Assembly (NCBI GenBank): GCA_950295325.1
Contig: OX485803.1
Coordinates: 35,231,554 to 35,295,553 of the forward strand
Length of the DNA stretch: 64,000 nt
Source of the DNA: Polytrichum commune
Taxonomy: Eukaryota; Streptophyta; Polytrichopsida; Polytrichales; Polytrichaceae
Direction of reading: 5' to 3'
How positions within the stretch are numbered: position 1 is the stretch's first letter; every line of letters starts with the position of its first letter. The position numbers were made by a program, and so were the translations under genes. The notes below the pieces were generated by a model, which searched no databases, was not told the origin of the DNA, and saw only the letters and a list, made by a program, of their open reading frames with translations. Below, in pieces: positions 3 through 57,933 of this stretch.

Positions 3-221
3 TCAAGGAGCTGGGCAGAAGAAACCAGGACACGACGACCAGCGGCATTATTAGCCTTGGACCATTATTCTGGAAGAAATAAGTTAGTAGCAAGGCTTGT
101 AAGTTGTGGTCCTTCACAGTGTATTGGGAAGTGCCCAGGCCAAGTACTTTGTAACAGTAAGTTGCATGATTACGAGAAAATCTCAGAACAACGTATCGAG
201 TGTTTCTGCCCGACTTAGTTG
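3..221 (+). other. Open frame of about 72 codons, possible partial exon
   Basis: One forward frame is open from the window edge to a TAG at 219-221. It is fairly basic and cysteine-rich near its middle, but I recognise no domain. A sequence resembling a plant 5' splice site (GTAAGT after ACA) occurs near 160-165, inside the frame. Base composition here is more balanced than in the AT-rich repeats further right, so this could be the tail of a host gene whose main part lies left of the window. It could equally be a chance open frame. No function is assigned. Confidence 0.15.
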
Positions 222-1494
222 AGATCAGGAGTCTATAACTGTGAGCATAATATGCGGCAATGAAACCGTAGTTTGCTGCTGGAATGGTACCTGCCCTAAT
301 GGTGTCGCATGCCACAACATGAACAACAATTAACCAACTCTCAACTTACAGTTTTATCTCCCCCACCCCACAAACTAACAAACCCTTGAAATGCAGCTTA
401 TCTACTTACCCAATGGAAGTGGCATTGATTGTTGTGAAATCAGCTTTGGTAATGACAGTACATAGCTATTATATAAGCAGGTCCGAGCTGCTTCGTCTGA
501 GCTCAAGGTTGGTTTGAAAAAGCTGGAGAAAACCTTCCCGATTTGTACCTGTGATTTCGAGGGCGACTCTTTGGGGATGCACCATATATAGCTAGGGTTA
601 CGATTTTCCCCAGCCCAACAATTTGCAGCAAAACTTTCCATGCTAGGTGCTCTCTCCCCCCTTGCCTGACAGTCCTCCAAACTTCAAGGTATTGCACGAT
701 GCACTTTTTATAATACGATTGTATTGATATCCTTAGTGGTTGCAGGAGGTGCATTGAACTTATCACTTTCTTGTACATTTTCCCTGCCAGGAAAAAGAAT
801 TCAAAATCTGCATTATTGTTTCGAGTTACACGACAGGGTCAATGAGGAAGCCGGTTCATCTCAGCTCCTTGTGCAGTTGGTGGCCCATCTCAATTCATTC
901 AGCCCATGCTTCTGGGTAAGGTATCACCTGTGCAACATGGGTACGAACGAATTTGTCCCCCATACAACACGGATCATAGGGTATGCGACCATTGCCTCCT
1001 GTGTTTTTTTGGGTTGAATGCACAGAAAAGGGAGCAGCTTCCTCATCATTTCAATATCTGGTCAAGTATTGCAGCATGGCCATGCCATGCAAATGACGGA
1101 TCTCGTACCTTGCAGATAGATCGAATGATGAAATTAGCTCACTGCTCGCTGCGTCGCTCTTCTTCTCATCAGTTCATGGATCCAAGCAGCCAACATATAA
1201 CGGTGTTATCCACTGAGCCCCACACAGGCTGGAAAGTGAAAGAGGTAAAAAAAAAGAAAAGAAAAGGAAGTCGGGAGGGGCCGGGGTGAAAGGTCTGGAG
1301 TGTAAGGAAGGTTGGAATGGGATCGTAGATTGATGGGCAGAGAGAGAGAGAGAGAGAGATAAAGATAAAGATAAAGAGTGTTTAGAGGCAGCCTGCAGGA
1401 GGCCGAGTGACAGTGGAGGGTACAAAAGTGCGATTGCTTCACTAGTAATGACAGAAGGCTACCGTAATCAATACTGCATTCTTCTCTTGAGAAG
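222..1494. other. Mixed-composition stretch without a recognised gene; GA microsatellite
   Basis: No domain is recognisable in either strand. A (GA)n run at about 1341-1358 is followed by (GATAAA)n to about 1377. Read on the minus strand this is the CT-rich microsatellite often seen in plant 5' UTRs, so a minus-strand transcript start near here is possible but unproven. Short open frames over this run that encode serine-leucine strings are microsatellite artefacts. Confidence 0.3.
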
Positions 1495-2075
1495 CATGCC
1501 AAGCTGCAACCCACAATCTCATCGTCGATTTTGCAGGCCAAGGACAGATTATTGGTGCTTATCAGAGCCCCTTCAACTGGCTATACCGTAGAGGGCGCTC
1601 TATTTCATCTTTGCTAGTGCAGGAATGTACTATCCACGTGAGGTTCAAGTGGTCTCCACCAATATAGGCATGACACGTGGCACATGCCAAGCTGCAAGCC
1701 ACAATCTCGTCTTTGATTTTGCACGCCAAGGACATCTCTCGTTGGCGCTAACAAGGCACATGACTGGTGCTTGTCGGCCCCTTCAATTGGCTATACCGTA
1801 GAAGGCTCTCTATTTCATCTCTACTAGTGCTCAAATGTACTAACCCACGTGGGATTCAAGTGATCTCGACCAATGTAGTAATAACACATGGCACATGTCA
1901 AGTTGCTACCCACAATCTCATCGTCGATTTTGTAGAGGCAAGGACGTCTCTTGTTGACACTTACGAGACAGATTCATGGTGCATGTTGCCCCTTCGACTG
2001 GCTATACCGTAGAAGACGCTCTATTCCATCTCTAATAGTGCTAGAATGTACTCTAGGGGAGTTCATTGCCCAGGG
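1495..2075. repeat. Three-unit tandem repeat, about 210-bp period
   Basis: The phrase CTATACCGTAGA recurs at about 1581, 1791 and 2002, which gives periods of 210 and 211 bp. A second anchor (CATGCCAAGCTGCAA-like) recurs at about 1495, 1683 and 1893. The first unit lacks about 20 bp that the second has. Each unit also carries the phrase ACAATCTCATCGTCGATTTTG in some variant. The third unit is cut at its right by the transposable element that begins at 2069. No coding function is seen. Confidence 0.8.
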
Positions 2076-2636
2076 GTTGGACTCTTCATGCCATGTACGA
2101 ACTAACTTGAGTGTAGAAATGGGTATACTTTGAGACATTAGTGTACATAGTATACATAAGGGAGACGTTTTATTTTTCTCTAGTGTGTATATTTTAAAAG
2201 TCCATGAATAAATTCAAAGTAAAGATAAATGTACAAAAAGGGCCCTAAAGTTTAGAAAAAGAAAATGTGCTAGTCTCATCTAATTTACCTTATTTCATCC
2301 AAATTTAATTTTTTTTGAAGGGTCAAATTATTATGAGTTATATCCTATGGATGAAATAATTGTTGCATCAATGACTTTCTTATTGGAAAGTGAATGTGAA
2401 TTATATATGTAATAAAAGTCCCATTTGTTTTATGATTTATATATTGTATATGTAGTGGAGGCATTAATCACATTAAATTGAAAATTTTAGTACAAATAGA
2501 TGAGTCCCTTTTCTAGCCTATTGTTGGTACGTATATATTCATTTTTCTCTATAAATTTCCTCGTACATAGGGGGTCTTATTTCATAGTCACTGACGCACA
2601 TCACTTATGATTCTAAGGAAGAGTCCACCCCCCAAG
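2069..2636 (+). mobile_element. Copy G of the ORF-bearing hAT-like family (decayed)
   Basis: This copy matches the reverse complement of the copy at 28548-29238 over most of its length, including GTACATAGTATACATAAGGG. It ends in GGGGTGGACTC-like inverted termini. The flanking octamers GTTCATTG (2061-2068) and GGTCACTG (2637-2644) match at 6 of 8 positions, as expected for an old hAT 8-bp TSD. The family's short ORF survives only as frameshifted fragments around 2335-2400 (ATGGATGAA... AATGACTTT). Boundaries are inferred from the inverted ends and are less certain than those of the copy at 23086-23868. Confidence 0.6.
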
Positions 2637-2879
2637 GGTCACTGACAATTTACGTAGAAAGGACATGCGAGGAAAGGTAGGGTGGAAGATACACCCTAAC
2701 CTTGATAATGTCACACTTGTTAATAGAACACCTTGATATTGTCACCTAAAAGTTTGAAACCGATTTCCATAGTGTAAAACTCCCTCGTTATTATCACTAT
2801 CACCCTTGATAATGTCACATTTTTTTTTCAAAATTTGTAGTGTAAGTGTGATAATAACAAGTAACATGGATGAAAAAAG

Positions 2880-3122
2880 GCCGGATGGACAACAAATTCT
2901 ATGGATGACGTCGGCATCTTCACCTGCTTCCGCTTGAATCTTGGGTTCTTGAATCTTGAATCTCATGTGCCGAAGAAGCAACGGTTTCTCTCGCAGATCA
3001 ACTTCTCGCAGCTTCGCCTGCATCGTATGCTCTCTCCTCTCGCCGCTCCACACACCGCTCTGCCCCTCATCTTCTTGCCGCTCTCCTCAACAAACTGCTG
3101 CATCCACAAGGTTTCTTCCTAA
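2880..3122. other. GC-richer insert inside the pogo element
   Basis: This stretch sits where the N-terminal helix-turn-helix and the first catalytic aspartate of a pogo transposase should be encoded, yet neither strand gives a recognisable match. It is richer in GC than the rest of the element, and a forward frame is open at 2901-3122. It may be captured host DNA or a 5' UTR exon. The downstream TTTTCAG at about 3229-3235 could serve as a 3' splice site. This is inference from composition and position only. Confidence 0.3.
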
Positions 3123-3222
3123 ATGGTACTTTTGAAGCTTTGAGGCTTGTTGAATCAATTCGGTGTTGAAGACCTTGTGATTGATTTCTTTGTTTCAAAC
3201 TTAGACTGCTGGCATTCATTTT

Positions 3223-4149
3223 GTGGCATTTTCAGAGAATTGCATTGTGAGGTGGAAGTTGATCAATCGGTGGTTCCTGAGGATTATTATGGATAATGCA
3301 GGAAGCCATGATATTCATGGTGAGGTCAAGAAAGTTATAGATGGGTTTAATGCTTTTGTACTCTCCCATATCACTATCTTGCTCCTTCCACCAAATGTGA
3401 CTTCAGTTGTTTAGCCTTTGGATCAAGGAGTGATTGCAGCATTCAAAATGTGCTATAAGCGCAAGCTTGTTGCCTGGACTTTGCAACAAATTGATAACAA
3501 CTCAAATGAAGATTTGGGGAAATTGAATGTTGATGTATTTCAAGCTATGCTATGGTGTGTGGTGGCATGGCATGAATTAGATGATCAAACCATTAGAAAT
3601 TGTTGGAGAAAGTCCGCCATATTGCCTGCAGAGTGGAATGCAGATATAAACAATCTTGATGAACGTATGAAGTCCAAAATGGAGGAAGCAACTTTGGAAT
3701 TGGGTAAACTCATCGCCGTATTAAATTTGGGTTTGGATGTTGAAGGCAAGCCTGTAGAAAAGCTTTGTCCTTTGGAGTACATAAACATGGAAGGTGAAGA
3801 TGATTTTGAGGTGGAATTTTCTACTGAGGAGCTTGTGCAATTAGTGCAAGATGGCGAACAGGTTCTTGATTCCATGGAAGTGGACACATTGATTGTTGAT
3901 AGCAGTGATGATGAATCTAAAGTAGTGAAGCTAAGCGATGCACAAAAATATGCTAAAGATGTTTTGAATTTTATGGCTAGCCAAGGTTCTCAGATTTTCA
4001 GCACTCATGAGTTGTTAGAAATGGAAAAAATCCATGACAAACTCATTAGAATTGGTGTTGCACATTTAACATCAACAAAACAATGTGACATTAGAAGCTT
4101 CTTTGTCTCTAGTGAGAGGTCTTTACCTGATCTCAATGACACATTATGA
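3223..4149 (+). pseudogene. Pogo/Tigger transposase, N-terminally truncated, one nonsense codon
   Basis: A single forward frame is open over about 308 codons except for one TAG at 3415-3417. It carries two landmarks of the DDE_1 (CENP-B/Tigger) domain. The first is MDNAGSH, with the second catalytic aspartate at 3292-3294. The second is LLPPNVTSVV followed by PLDQG, with the third catalytic aspartate at 3424-3426. The TAG sits where the family has glutamine just before PLDQG, so a single C-to-T change explains it. Downstream, RNCWRKSAI and an acidic tail are typical of the family C-terminus. The first catalytic aspartate and the DNA-binding domain are missing. The product would have cut and pasted the surrounding element; this copy cannot be active. 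Confidence 0.9.
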
Positions 4150-4373
4150 TGTGCTCTTGTTGTTATTCACAATTTTGAATTAGATTTTACATTCAAAAAC
4201 ATTGAAGTCTCGTATTTGTTTTTTTAAAATTGTAATTATATTTTGATTTTCTACATATTTTTTGATAATATCACATTATGCACAAAATGTGACATTATCA
4301 AGCATGTCACACCTTGTTTATATCACACTTTTTGGTGAAACGGAGGGTGTGACATTATCAAGGTTAGGGTGTA

Positions 4374-5457
4374 TTTGTAAGACATGAATTTAATATTTTC
4401 TTTAAAACTATATTAGGCTTTGTTAATGTCCATAAGTAATTCATATTAAATAAGGTACTATAAGTAAATTGTGCTAATTTAAATCTATTTTTTGTGAAAT
4501 AGTGTAACAAAAATTGGAATGAAGAAAATTGGGAATTTTTGGGGAGGCTCCGTCATTCCCAACTATCGGGGTTGGCCATTGGGAACCACATGCACACTTT
4601 CCCCCAAGCAGCTAGGTAGGCATAAATTGCGGAGTTGTAGGCCCTCAACGAAAGTAAGTGCGAGGCGGGACGCCAAACCCTTCACTTGTTTATACATATT
4701 ATTAAAAAAAATTAAAAAAACTTGAACAAAGTAGAGCAAATGACCAAGAAAAGAATTCAAAATCAAAAGAAATAAGGTTTGAAAACGTCCTACTAAGGTT
4801 AATACTCAATTAGAATTAGATTGGTAACTCATTAAAGCGTACTTAAAGGATGTCATGTGAAATCTAATTGAAGTGAAGGAAGGCCATTCTATGGTTAGGA
4901 ATTCTAAGGTGAAGGGCAAATCATGCCGATAATTCATGCGAGGCCACCAAATAGGCCAAATCAATCATCACCTCATCCTTAAGATTTAAAATTAAGATTT
5001 CAAGTCATAAGGGTTTTCAAATTGGGTAATATCAAGCATAAATAAAAGAATAAATCCACAAATTATATTTGGTAATTTATGAAGGAATTTAATAGAGATC
5101 TTTGACCAATGGACTTGATTCAAGATATGAAGATTTTTTCACTTAGTCCATGTACGTTGTAAAGGGGGAGAGGAATCACTTGACCTTAACATTACACTTG
5201 GTAATAATATTGAAAGGCATAATCCTAGTTCTATCTTAAAGATACCAAACCTTGACATTAAGGTTTAGGAGAACATAAGCTTGCAAAAACTCTAGAGCAT
5301 CTAATTCTAGGCAAATTTTCTATGAGTCTTGGAGACATTCACTAAAAAAGAAACATATGTAAGAAAATGCAATCATGATATCAAAGAAGTTTAAGGAATT
5401 CATGTGGTTGATCAAGTATTAGGAATCGTGTTGGGAGATTAAGTGTTATAATTAGGT
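4374..5457. other. AT-rich intergenic DNA, nothing recognised
   Basis: There are no long open frames, no inverted termini and no tandem structure that I can support. A short basic ORF around 4519-4725 shows no known motif. Confidence 0.4.
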
Positions 5458-6218
5458 GGGGGCATTCACGGTTGGGGTACTACTTTTGGGACAAAGGACT
5501 TAAGGACTTTTTACATTGGATCTCGGCGTTTATCATGATTTTCTATTATTTGATCAATAAATTTTAGATAAATAAGTAGATAGTTCATAGGCTTTATCAA
5601 GAAAGATATTATTTCTTATTAAACCCAAACCCAAAACCCAAAACCCTAAACCCTTCGGCCACATCAATGGCATTTTTACTATTCAAGTGTACATCATAGG
5701 TCAATTTTTTCTTGTTTTGCATCTTGGTACCTTGGTATAAGTGTCATGTGTCCGTTCATATAATTTTTTTGGTCCAATTCTAATACTAGACGTTCCTTTT
5801 ACGTGTGGCCATGATTATATGTATTTTTGGCCATGTTTGGTGCCACATGTAAAGTTGGGCAATTGGTATTCAATACATATTTGGTTCTATTGGTACACAC
5901 TTGAAGGATGATAGTGAGGAAAAAATTTGGGATTGTTTCGATTGATTCTTCTTGTCCTTTTCATTCCTTGATCCTAAGGTGAACAATGAAGACAACACTC
6001 CTAAATGTCCCTATTAAGGAATCAAAAGGCTATCTTAGATGACCCTATTCCTTCTAAATTAACTTTGTAGGTGTACTCAATATGGAGTATGAAATGTAGG
6101 TATGATCCAAATTATGCTTCACAATACAAATCTAAGCATACAAAGCATGTGAAGTTATCTAAAAAAGTCCTTTTTCAGTTAGACACCCAAAAGTAGTACC
6201 CCAACCGTGAATGCCCCC
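5458..6218. mobile_element. Non-autonomous element with 33-bp perfect inverted ends (761 bp)
   Basis: The left end 5458-5490 (beginning GGGGGCATTCACGGTTGGGG) is the exact reverse complement of 6186-6218. AGGT follows the right end (6219-6222) and precedes the left end (5454-5457), giving an apparent 4-bp target duplication. That length is not typical of hAT (8), Mutator (9), Harbinger (3) or Tc1/mariner (2). There is no coding capacity. The interior carries a run of telomere-like CCCAAA and CCCTAAA units at about 5622-5654. Fully identical termini suggest a recent insertion. The superfamily is not assigned. Confidence 0.85.
5622..5654. repeat. Interstitial telomere-like repeat
   Basis: A short run of AAACCC / AAAACCC / CCCTAAACCC units resembles the plant telomere repeat CCCTAAA but is degenerate. 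It lies inside the inverted-end element at 5458-6218. Confidence 0.6.
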
Positions 6219-8227
6219 AGGTGATAGTTTGAACCTTTGAGGAGTTCAAAAATATACCTAGAAGAGGATACCCCTCTTCACGTCTAGAATACCAAAATGA
6301 ACCTAAAGTTCCAAAATAACATGCAAAATTCCACCTTTACATTATTTAGAATTTTAAGATTGTTTCAGTCTAATTCTTATAAGAGTCATTTTCATGTAAC
6401 TAGTCAGTAGCGGGTTTAATTATCTAAGGCTAAGGGTTGCAAGTGACCTCGACAATTGTTTTAGAGTTGGGGTCCCACAAATATGTAATAATTTCATAAG
6501 TTTAGCTTCAAATTCGTAGGAGTATACACTTAGATTACATTGGTATTAAAATGAGGCAGATGTAATAAGTCAATATTAATATATTATATAACAATTTACA
6601 TACTTGTCCAATGAAGTAATTGATGGAATTGTCATGCATGTATTTATTGCATATTTGTATCTTATAATGTATATAATATATGATTTGTGCTAGCATATAT
6701 CCAAGTATGATATGCATACTAAACTTCTGCTAGATTGATAGGGCTAATCTTGTACTTCTATAAATCTGATATTCCTTTTTGGTGCGTAGTGCATCAATTG
6801 AACCCCCAATGGATCAAAAGAGGCAAAGAATGTTCTCATATTTGGAAAAACCACCACAACGTCACGTAGTTTTTTCAAAAATATCTTTGGTTTTTTGTTT
6901 TCTTAAGAGTGTCTCAAAGGTCTTTGACAAATGCCATAAGAGCTTTTTCTTCTTTTCTCTGATGTGGCATGTTGGTTACTTTTGGAGGTTCAAATAATCA
7001 TGTTGGATACAATCAACCTTTCTCCTCAAATAACTAGATTAAGGTTCAAAAATCTTCAGTGAATAAAATAGATTTAGTTAGTTCTATTAAACGCCTATTC
7101 AAGCTTAGTTATCATGAACTAACCAACTTAGATTCATGTAATATATTTTAATGACTATAATGCATCCTAATGAGGGTCAAAAATCCAATGTGAACATTTA
7201 TAAATACTAAAATATTCTCTTACAAAAATGAGGGTTTTAAAATGCCTCATGAAAACATCTATAACTTTATGTCAAAATTTAAAATTGGAAAAAATTAGTT
7301 AGATTAGAAATAAAAATTTGAAATTTACATATAGAAATAAAATTTGTAAAAATGGTAACTTAAAAATCCATGGTGAAACTACAAAATCAGGTATACTAAA
7401 ATCAAGGTTGTCTCATACAAATACTCATAACTTCTAAATAAGAATTGGAATAGAAAGAAGATTGGAAGGCTTATTCAAATGTAACAAAATATGTTAAAAA
7501 CTTATCGGAGCACCTAGTGGCAAGCCTATGAAATCAATTTTCTTTTTTCTTTTTTCAATAAGGTGGTTTTCTTAATATTTCTCACAATAATATGTATAAC
7601 TTTTAGACAAAATTGATTGCTAGAAAGTTTTAAAAAATTTCTAGAAAGAAAAATTTAAGATCTATCTGCGCATATGAGATATATAAGGAATGGTCCTAGG
7701 AATAATCCGTGGCAAGCTTCTCATGTCAATTATCTATATCGGACTCATGATAATTCGCTAGTATAAAACATTCTAGAAACTAAGAGTGATCTGTCATCCA
7801 AAGAAGATGAGTTATATTGCAAACCTAATGCAAGATATAAGAATAAATGAATTTGACATTAAATACTTATATATATATATATATATATATAATTGAACAT
7901 GGCATCACCCTCTCTTTTACAATACTAAACTATCACTCAATCCATTAAAATGGACTAAATTGCGTATAATTGTTCAAGTGTAAGAGTTGGTTGGGAACAA
8001 GGTGGAAGATAATAGATGGAAGATGCTATTCTACAAAGATCCAAGCCCAAAATGGGAGACCGAAATCAAAGCAGTAAAAGATGAAGTTGTCGAAAACAAG
8101 ATCATTTCTAAAAGTTTGCGTCAAATAGTGGGGGTGAGTTATTTAAAAAAAAATCTTGAGCCTCATCACTCCTTGCGTGATTCAGTGTAGTTTCACTCAC
8201 CATCAATTTGCTTTGGATACGCATTGT
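6219..8227. other. AT-rich intergenic DNA with one (AT)n run
   Basis: No gene or element ends are supported. A dinucleotide (AT)n microsatellite lies at about 7868-7890. The short frames are unremarkable. Confidence 0.4.
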
Positions 8228-10361: not shown

Positions 10362-10890
10362 GCCTGGGGGTGCACTTTTCATTGGAAATCAAAATGGCGT
10401 ATGTGGACAGTGGGTGACCTAGAGGGGCACACATGGGGGTTGCACTCAATGTGGCCCATACGGACCCACGTGGGTGCACAAAAAGGGGTATTAATTGTGC
10501 TTAGGGGTTACAAAAGATACATAAGGTACATGTATTATTTATTCTGGCTTTGTAAATATACTAGTCATATTATACATATACTCCTAATTGTACTTCTAAC
10601 TTTAGCCCATAGTCAATTTTAATGAAGTGGGAAATCTACAAGAGGTCCAAATGAATATTTCATCCAATACGTGAGGTGAATGATAATCCCACATTGTTCA
10701 AGGATGGGTTCATTAGAGTCAAGTATGATATGTTGTATGTCAAACCTAAAGTTCGACCATCTAGAGCAAAAAAAAGTGATTATTCATTGAAATTGAGTTG
10801 TCATTCTGTTGTATCATTTGTTTATCAAGTTGCAGCTGAAGGAGTGAAGAAAAGAGGGATACCTCCAAGACTTAGTATTTGGGAAGGGTC

Positions 10891-11260
10891 AGGCACCACG
10901 GGCCTTGGCTTGGTGGTTAGGGCTCATGGCCCCCAATGAGGAGGTTGTGGGTTCTATTCCCCATGCCGGCGTGGTGCTCACCACCTTAGTCCACCCAACT
11001 ATGGTGGGGGGTCCTTGGACCTTGTTGTATGGGTACCTCAAAGCCCTTTGGGGGGATACCATGTCCGGTATCTTCAAGGCACTAGTGGCTAGCAGGAACT
11101 AGTATAGTGTGTCACTATAGTGTCCATCCTCGAAAGGGGAGAGTAGTATTGTCCCAATGTCCCCTTGTCCAATGGGCATCGGGTCATTGGCATTACGAAC
11201 GGACACTTTATTCACGCCGGCCCCTTGCTAAAAAGGGACCGGAGTTTCTATCTATCTATC
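10891..11260 (+). mobile_element. tRNA-derived SINE (370 bp) with 12-bp target duplication
   Basis: The head contains a polymerase-III A box (TGGCTTGGTGG, 10906-10916) and a B box (GGTTCTATTCC, 10950-10960) at tRNA-like spacing. The 3' end is a short (TCTA)n tail. The 12-bp direct repeat TTGGGAAGGGTC flanks the element at 10879-10890 and 11261-11272. The duplication proves retroposition into the older hAT-like copy. From about 10980 onward the body is shared with the 5S-headed SINE at 57510-57926. It needs LINE machinery in trans, probably one recognising the shared 3' region. Confidence 0.92.
10906..10960 (+). promoter_or_regulatory. RNA polymerase III internal promoter (A and B boxes) of the SINE
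   Basis: The A box TGGCTTGGTGG fits TRGCNNAGYNGG with small changes. The B box GGTTCTATTCC differs from GGTTCGANTCC at two or fewer consensus positions. The spacing of about 33 bp is in the normal tRNA range. Confidence 0.8.
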
Positions 11261-11793
11261 TTGGGAAGGGTCTATAGGATGCGCCACAAAATTGGCAATG
11301 GGTGGACTGAGTATCGACAACCAATTGACCTTTGGGACCAACCTTCCAATATGACAATAGGATTTTGTGGGTAGCAAAACAAGAATGAATCAATATGGAT
11401 CTACAATTTGACAAATGATTTGATGGTAGAGTTAGAAACCATCATTACATTGACTACAATGACTTATACTGTAGAAACAAATTTGTGTGAGTTACATTCA
11501 ATGGTTGAATGAGTGTTCATTAATTTCATGAATGATAAATAAATATGGCTTGCTAAGAATATTTTATCCAAATTTTCATACTATATTTTTGGCATATACA
11601 TATGATTGGGGTGTATATCCTTTATTTATTTAGTTATTTATCATTTGTGTATGTATTCAAGAGGATTTTCTTGCTACTTATTTATACATATATCATTTTT
11701 AAAAGGGGAGAAAGTCTTGTATATTAGGGGTTTTAATTTCAAGATAATGCATGCACGTGGTTTTTGGTTCTAACAACAAGTTCACCCCTGTTG

Positions 11794-57420: not shown

Positions 57421-57509
57421 AACCTAAGGCTTCTCACATCAGGGTTTTAATTCATCCAAATACACCTTATATATCATATCATAGTGTCATTATCATCTCC
57501 AATTATTTA

Positions 57510-57926
57510 GGGTGACTTAAACCCAAGGCCTTAACCCAGATCCCTTGGGAACTCCAAGGTTAAGTCGCCTAAGGTCGGAATAGTACTAAGATGGGTGACC
57601 TTCCTAGCACTTGATTTCGGGTGCACTCTACCACCTATGATCCACCCCATCATGGTGGGGGGGTCTTGGTGAGCTGGATATTTTCAACCAACCATGTGGG
57701 AACCCAGGGATTAGCCTTGGGGGCGATAGGTGTTAGCCAACCTGTCCATGCCCATTCAAGGTGTTCACCTTCGAAAGGAGGCCGTAGTCGTTGGGACCCT
57801 CTAAATCTCATACTGCCCATGTTGGGATTACATATAGAATTAGACCAACGCAAAAATGAAGCAACACCATAATTCACGCCGGTGGCAACATCGGAGTCGT
57901 CTTTCTTTTTCTTTTTCTTTCCCCGG
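57510..57926 (+). mobile_element. SINE with a 5S rRNA-derived head (417 bp)
   Basis: The first 115 bp follow a plant 5S rRNA outline: a GGGTGAC start, CAGATCCC, GAACTCC, GTTAAG, AATAGTACTAAGATGGGTGACC and a GGGTGCAC ending. The region then continues with a body shared with the tRNA-headed SINE at 10891-11260. Shared blocks are CCACC..TGGTGGGGGG, the TTCGAAAGG area and TTCACGCCGG, followed by GGAGT..TTTCT. The 3' end is a TTTCTTTTTC-type tail. TTATTTA is repeated on both sides (57503-57509 and 57927-57933). It is not a functional 5S gene, because many positions differ. Confidence 0.85.
57557..57604 (+). promoter_or_regulatory. 5S-type internal promoter (A box, intermediate element, C box)
   Basis: AGGTTAAGTCGCC corresponds to the A box (AGTTAAGCG...). 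TAGTACTAAG corresponds to the intermediate element, and GATGGGTGACCTT to the C box, in the usual order and spacing. The A box carries substitutions, so activity is uncertain. Confidence 0.7.
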
Positions 57927-57933
57927 TTATTTA

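Follow-up and report, generated by a model that had tools for sequence, protein, structure and literature searches.

The stretch analysed here, called the window, comprises 64,000 nucleotides of the moss Polytrichum commune and lies on contig C1 of a genome of 407.8 Mb that has seven large contigs; contig C8 holds two intact PsaA/PsaB-family genes and is therefore regarded as a plastid contig. The gene compared with the PDB, psaB, has 170 matches there, and the best of the 60 listed are 7ksq, 6l35 and 8htu with 1670 bits each, entries of moss photosystem I that fit a moss host, followed by 9lut (1632 bits) and by 7wfd and others (1600 bits or less). Two short interspersed elements (SINEs) of the window are described, one with a head resembling 5S rRNA and the other with a head resembling a tRNA (Table 1). 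An earlier note on this DNA had placed both, and its coordinates are correct within a few bases. The window copy of the 5S SINE starts with GGGTGACTTAAACCC, finishes with a pyrimidine repeat and has TTATTTA on both sides.

Table 1. Parts of the two SINEs of the window and the basis on which each was delimited (TSD, target-site duplication).
Feature	Position	Strand	Basis
5S-headed SINE, whole element	57510-57926	+	query 16-395 or more covered by 40 of 40 scored genome matches (window copy among them)
5' TSD of 5S SINE, TTATTTA, 7 bp	57503-57509	.	3' copy at 57927-57933; short, weak alone
5S rRNA-derived head	57510-57626	+	RF00001 below gathering; consensus against own 5S gene
Putative A box in 5S head	~57557-57569	+	by eye; place presumed from 5S biology
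Putative C box in 5S head	~57581-57600	+	by eye; place presumed likewise
Central block common with tRNA SINE (CTACCACCT..TCCACCC..GTGGGGG)	57627-57757	+	profile tests; borders approximate
LINE 3' UTR-related region, from the TCGAAAGG block to the hairpin	57759-57898	+	LINE UTR profile; borders approximate
Terminal hairpin AC.CCGGTG-GCAA-CATCGG.GT	57876-57897	+	family-consensus fold; position as in LINEs
Pyrimidine simple-repeat tail and 3' end	57900-57926	+	sequence
tRNA-headed SINE, whole element	10891-11260	+	40 scored genome matches including window copy, the others ~99%
5' TSD of tRNA SINE, TTGGGAAGGGTC, perfect 12-bp repeat	10879-10890	.	3' copy at 11261-11272
tRNA-like head	10899-10970	+	relaxed ARAGORN on family consensus
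A-box-like motif	~10906-10916	+	by eye
B-box-like motif GGTTCTATTCC	~10950-10960	+	loose B-box pattern
Central block common with 5S SINE	10973-11111	+	profile tests; borders approximate
LINE-derived 3' region, (TATC)n at end	11112-11260	+	identity with L096 and L095; 26/40 LINE ends
Terminal hairpin AC.CCGG.CCCTT-loop-AAGGG.CCGG.GT	11214-11245	+	family-consensus fold

The best 40 of the 2371 candidates found for the 5S SINE in the genome were scored, and every one of them spans the query from position 16 or earlier to position 395 or later, from which it follows that head, body and tail move together. For each SINE family the 20 scored matches nearest to the window copy were fetched, and the 5S consensus was built from these 20 plus the window copy (n=21). 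When up to 3 mismatches are allowed, the genome has 1016 occurrences of the tail word TTCACGCCGGTGGCAACATC and 15 of the reversed control; from such tail counts, the family is dispersed in about 1,000 copies. The pattern TTCACGCCGGR gave 102 matches against 106 for its control, so the bare motif TTCACGCCGG followed by A or G is background. Exact TSDs of at least 8 bp were found around 5 of the 21 copies, versus 1.0% of mismatched flank pairs, and none of at least 7 bp around 14 of the 21; the 7 bp of the window copy is a length reached by 4% of the mismatched pairs. Diverged pieces of the 5S SINE were also observed beside a LINE of the group named LINE-A below (L067, 1383-1782) and near a 5S gene (L072, 105-250).

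The derivation of the head was assessed with the Rfam 5S model RF00001, which scores 22.2 bits (E 0.06) on 57511-57626, the gathering score being 38; at that score the model matches neither the window nor any of the 19 fetched copies searched (all 20 but L009). Comparison with the 5S gene of the moss itself (L073) is more direct: the head of the window copy is identical at 88 of 109 positions (local score 88 versus 44 in shuffles), and that of the consensus at 92 of 110, i.e. 83.6% over aligned bases, with a local score of 103, the highest of 1000 shuffles scoring 36. Neither the tRNA SINE head (17 versus 38) nor the body of the 5S SINE (19 versus 39) exceeds its shuffles against the same gene. 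Identity of the consensus head is 44/51 in 5S positions 48-98, where the internal control region presumably lies, 33/47 before them and 15/21 after. The diverged 5S rRNA head previously proposed for this element is thus upheld by the Rfam match below gathering and by the match to the moss's own gene.

It is very improbable that the source of the head was a 5S-like sequence of the kind linked to TFIIIA-like genes and not a 5S rRNA gene, as the 5S SINE profile does match two paired 5S-like loci with 33-39 bits but scores higher, 50-51 bits, on 5S genes. The paired loci, located on contigs C2 and C7, are of some interest in themselves, with tandem 5S-like stretches at 299-403 and 484-563 of L092 and at 302-383 and 462-568 of L093, adjoined by what by eye is zinc-finger-like coding sequence; we take each doublet for a duplicated form of the plant 5S mimic (P5SM) that belongs to the TFIIIA gene.

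A Cassandra TRIM, whole or fragmentary, is a most improbable identity for the 5S element. Cassandra is known as a 5S-bearing retroelement of plants (PMC10853983), but in the moss the 5S sequence opens a single unit that closes with a LINE-type tail, and the 40 scored matches are alike in this. The paired LTRs that define such a TRIM were not seen around the 5S sequence, and a second copy of it is absent both from the 64-kb window and from the 200 bp flanking each fetched copy. Of the 20 fetched copies, 19 match from element base 1-3 on (L009 from base 16), and the flanks before that point are unlike one another, which, together with the LINE-type tail, speaks against the Cassandra-type LTR that the earlier note had considered as a surrounding for the element.

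The tail word of the tRNA SINE occurs 1200 times in the genome versus 5 times for the control, and exact TSDs of at least 10 bp flank 18 of 21 copies versus 0 of 420 mismatched flank pairs. TSDs had been reported for both window elements; the 12-bp repeat of the tRNA SINE is perfect, and that of the 5S SINE amounts to 7 bp only. ARAGORN at its default calls no tRNA and, at a relaxed threshold, finds a tRNA-Gly-like fold in consensus positions 11-82. Since it appears only at the relaxed threshold, the tRNA likeness is modest, and the A/B box head described earlier is retained on this fold and the loose B box, with the default search remaining silent. The mean distance from the consensus is 11.7% in the 5S family and 0.5% in the tRNA family, figures that are biased, as each sample was drawn from the sequences most similar to the window copy. 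By this measure the 5S family seems the older of the two; the tRNA family is young and recently active.

Both families consist of short units dispersed in many copies. Their heads derive from Pol III genes, less firmly in the tRNA family, where the fold requires relaxed ARAGORN, and the 5S-derived sequence lies at the 5' end as in the SINE3 class. TSDs are clear in the tRNA family and partial in the 5S family, and a LINE found in this genome shares the 3' end, a match that is strong in the tRNA SINE and weak, by profile only, in the 5S SINE.

The bodies of the two elements were then compared. A gapped alignment of the consensuses scores 82, the best of 500 shuffles reaching 52. The 5S profile gives 14.7 bits on the tRNA consensus (112-283 with 86-263), versus a best of 5.7 bits in 2000 dinucleotide shuffles, and the reverse test gives 14.3 versus 9.5 bits with as many shuffles. 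Moreover, TTCACGCCGG, the hairpin and the pyrimidine repeat are present in both tails. An origin of the two SINEs independent of each other, one LINE group having supplied both 3' ends, with a central similarity due to chance or composition and no head swap, would be in keeping with the best single block under stricter scoring (37, not above the 38 of the shuffles) and with a LINE source that is within reach for both 3' ends. Nevertheless, this origin is unlikely, given that profiles of the central part only, with the LINE part cut, surpass 2000 dinucleotide shuffles in both directions (13.2 versus 7.9 and 15.1 versus 10.1 bits) and that the central block was detected in none of 42 LINE 3' ends. 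The central-block homology of the 5S SINE and the tRNA SINE is read from these comparisons as old and weak, but real. The common central and 3' regions claimed by the earlier note consequently exceed chance in the profile tests and in the gapped alignment, although weakly; a lack of homology between the bodies, which it had allowed for, was not found, and its expectation of two sub-families distinguished by their heads and having one type of tail agrees with the scored copies, in which each head stays with its tail.

As regards the source of the tails, LINEs were located by Pfam matches to reverse transcriptase (RT) and endonuclease, and their predicted 3' ends were fetched by offset. The first 18 ends were obtained with an offset derived from LINE-A, at a stage when no second LINE group was known to carry a SINE tail; 14 of them have the LINE-A tail, two (L078, L079) the tail of the tRNA SINE and two (L075, L082) neither. 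LINE-A tails (L055, L057, L060 and 14 more) form hairpins similar to ATTCACGCCGGTAT-loop-ATACTGGCGT and then run into TTTTC repeats. The ends of L078 and L079 match the tRNA SINE from consensus position 224 on, and the matching LINE stretch extends to position 373; L096 has 91.4% identity with the SINE over 151 bp, and L095 80.7%. In L097, the element upstream of L095, an open frame of 2312 aa reaches position 6938, and the SINE-like stretch starts ~330 bp past this frame and has TATC repeats at the end. Forty further ends were taken from endonuclease matches with an offset derived from L097, the tail of which was already known, L097-like elements being preferred, and in this non-random sample the tRNA SINE tail is on the sense strand in 26 of the 40 (13/20 and 13/20), the LINE-A tail in four (L104, L105, L107, L120) and no recognised tail in ten. 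The identity with L096 and the presence of the stretch in 26 of 40 ends mark the tRNA SINE tail as the 3' UTR of a LINE (LINE-B): the last ~150 bp of this SINE are the terminal 3' UTR sequence of LINEs that the moss genome also contains.

The relation of the 5S SINE to these LINEs is more distant. A profile made from 28 LINE-B UTRs (of the 42 ends) scores 13.9-14.7 bits on positions 250-389 of the 5S SINE, versus 5.2-6.0 bits for the best of 2000 shuffles. The converse search of the 40 LINE ends with the 5S SINE profile yielded no more than two weak matches, of 5.7 and 4.1 bits, and so did not reveal a direct LINE partner of this SINE; the partner may be extinct or may be among LINEs outside the fetched set. 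The match to a LINE 3' UTR that the earlier note had proposed as a check is accordingly strong for the tRNA SINE and weak, at profile level, for the 5S SINE. No SINE tail was seen in the fetched sequence of the L1-like LINEs with poly(A), of which L041, L042 and L045 were read to the end, or in that of the LINE group L048-L054, several 3' ends of both groups being undelimited.

Some other features of the LINE ends were noted. A LINE-B subgroup of twelve (L098, L099, L100, L101, L108, L119, L121, L124, L125, L130, L131, L132) ends in GGGACCGGAGTTC(TTC)n, not in (TATC)n, which indicates that the terminal repeat varies between subfamilies. The LINE-B 3' UTR contains by eye an antisense stretch resembling a tRNA head (L097 ~7090-7165; L096 ~65-130), in which ARAGORN calls no tRNA; its scores against the tRNA SINE head, 24 and 23, stay below shuffle maxima of 32 and 29, and homology of the two is not asserted. 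At the end of LINE L052 (L065, ~920-990) there is adjoining tRNA-like sequence with the B-box-like GTTCGATTC and, by eye, a CCA anticodon, a single instance in which insertion of this LINE into a tRNA gene is possible.

The tails that were folded have a terminal hairpin in common. It starts at the AC of TTCACG or a variant in the 17 LINE-A tails folded (17/17), and it is also formed by the 15 LINE-B tails that were folded (15/15, those of the 28 with the exact motif; no shuffle control); L112 and L134 have weak hairpins. The consensus tails of both SINEs fold into a hairpin at the position it has in the LINEs, that of the 5S SINE being of the LINE-B form, AC.CCGG..CGG.GT. Covariation was evaluated in an alignment (A1) of 15 of the 21 LINE-A tails, the six omitted ones being mostly near-identical to those kept (not L120), and with a structure that had been drawn on the same 15 sequences. 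In it, 93.3% of the cells pair and both sides have changed in 6 of 10 pairs; the covariation score was reached by 0 of 500 shuffles and the number of pair types by 38 of 500, and columns 23/38 are unpaired in 9 of the 15 tails. A LINE hairpin with covariation makes the rule of tail recognition directly testable.

The proteins of these LINEs were characterised in L076 (LINE-A) and L097 (LINE-B), both of which encode an APE-type endonuclease, RT and RNase H according to Pfam. PF14529 and PF03372, above cut-off in both, correspond to the apurinic-type endonuclease, and PF00078 and PF00075 to the RT and RNase H, by which Dualen/RandI elements are recognised. Compared with PDB chains, the RT of L076 matches three R2 chains best (7.4e-30 to 1.2e-25), followed by L1 chains (~1e-17) and, after these, by 8gh6 (2.9e-17) and 8ibw, which we take to be silkworm R2. 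The C-terminus has, by eye in alignment A2, conserved cysteines and an invariant PD..EFT..K..KY pattern, a candidate for the core of a restriction-like endonuclease. A PDB search with a single C-terminal sequence gave no match, and a profile of the C-terminus reached 8gh6 on its zinc-knuckle side only (E 0.78), which does not surpass its match to an unrelated transpeptidase (E 0.7). Dualen has been described as combining APE and restriction-like endonucleases (PMC4640811). Judging from these protein sequences, the partner LINEs would be Dualen-like and not plant L1, perhaps with a second, restriction-like endonuclease.

A PCIF1-like domain was observed between RT and RNase H of L097 (residues 1564-1692, frame 3-6938), where PF12237 scores above cut-off (2.2e-12); residues 1414-1500 of L076 match it below cut-off (4e-6). 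Against the PDB structure of PCIF1, 6irv, the LINE domain gives E 3.1e-4, and the position of NPPF, which we take to be the PCIF1 motif, reads HPPN in L097. The literature search produced nothing on PCIF1 in retrotransposons among the matches listed.

Taken together, these data favour, with a probability of about 85%, the interpretation that both elements are SINEs of one lineage whose heads have been swapped and whose tails come from a Dualen-like LINE group. RNA of the 5S SINE would be produced by Pol III from an internal type 1 (5S) promoter in the head, and that of the tRNA SINE from an internal type 2 (tRNA) promoter. The head would be followed by a body made of the SINE-specific central block and a piece of LINE 3' UTR ending in the hairpin and a pyrimidine repeat. 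A protein of the Dualen-like group would bind this tail and copy the RNA into nicked genomic DNA, leaving TSDs, steps suggested by the shared tail and the TSDs. One head would have replaced the other in front of this common body, for which a switch of template by the reverse transcriptase would be the simplest route. The earlier note had already proposed a head swap in a lineage mobilised by one LINE; the tails do belong to one LINE group, which is as far as this part extends because no LINE was identified as direct partner of the 5S SINE, and the head swap itself is what we infer. It is somewhat more probable than not, and less so than the main interpretation, that the 5S SINE lineage of the moss is specific to plants and was born independently, exchanged its Pol III head with a tRNA-headed sister while a single central domain and a single type of tail were retained, and is copied by a Dualen-like LINE with dual endonucleases and a PCIF1-like (cap-methyltransferase-related) domain. 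In that case it would be for land plants what the DeuSINEs are for animals, with a different LINE as its engine.

SINEs with swapped heads and a common tail are known in animals, and SINEs with Dualen tails are known in Chlamydomonas. The 5S-derived SINE3 class, with which the moss family shares a 5S-derived head at the 5' end and LINE-type retroposition, is listed for zebrafish, Lepidoptera and Aspergillus, and 5S promoters of SINEs are spoken of for animals in PMC10853983. Among the matches listed by a literature search with thin coverage of subscription journals, which leaves absence unproven, there was no 5S-headed SINE or SINE3 member from plants (PMC10886601, PMC8825457, PMC11490119). 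Cassandra resembles the moss element in being a plant element with a 5S promoter, but it is an LTR retrotransposon, whereas the moss element has a LINE tail. It has been proposed that Cassandra started by insertion of a SINE3 into an LTR (PMC10886601), which needs 5S SINEs in plants, and the moss family bears on this proposal.

With respect to LINE partners, PMC3747384 gives Chlamydomonas SINEX-1, -2, -4 and -5/6_CR tails of RandI/Dualen, SINEX-2_CR ending in (CTTT)n. The 3' end of these SINEs comes from a RandI/Dualen LINE, as in the moss, where it is Dualen-like; however, the heads described there for this green alga are unknown or tRNA, none being 5S, and the comparison is one of descriptions. 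The land-plant pairs given in the same source, TS/RTE and ZmSINE2-3/L1, likewise have LINE-derived 3' ends, but these angiosperm SINEs have tRNA heads and RTE or L1 partners. The Dualen type of SINE/LINE pairing would hence be extended to a land plant, as the 2013 table of PMC3747384 includes a green alga and no land plant.

The closest parallel in organisation is the DeuSINE superfamily, in which, according to Table 1 of PMC3747384, AmnSINE1/SINE3 have 5S heads, LmeSINE1 and SacSINE1 have tRNA heads, and the tails are of CR1 type. As in the moss, 5S-headed and tRNA-headed members form one group with LINE tails; on the other hand, DeuSINEs are described there from animals, with CR1- or L2-like partner LINEs, and the likeness is one of description, not of central-domain sequence. 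The two moss families offer a natural experiment, with related body and tail, two types of Pol III promoter and two ages. If the interpretation is true, swapping of 5S and tRNA heads, known from animal DeuSINEs, has also happened in land plants, where an unrelated type of LINE served as the engine.
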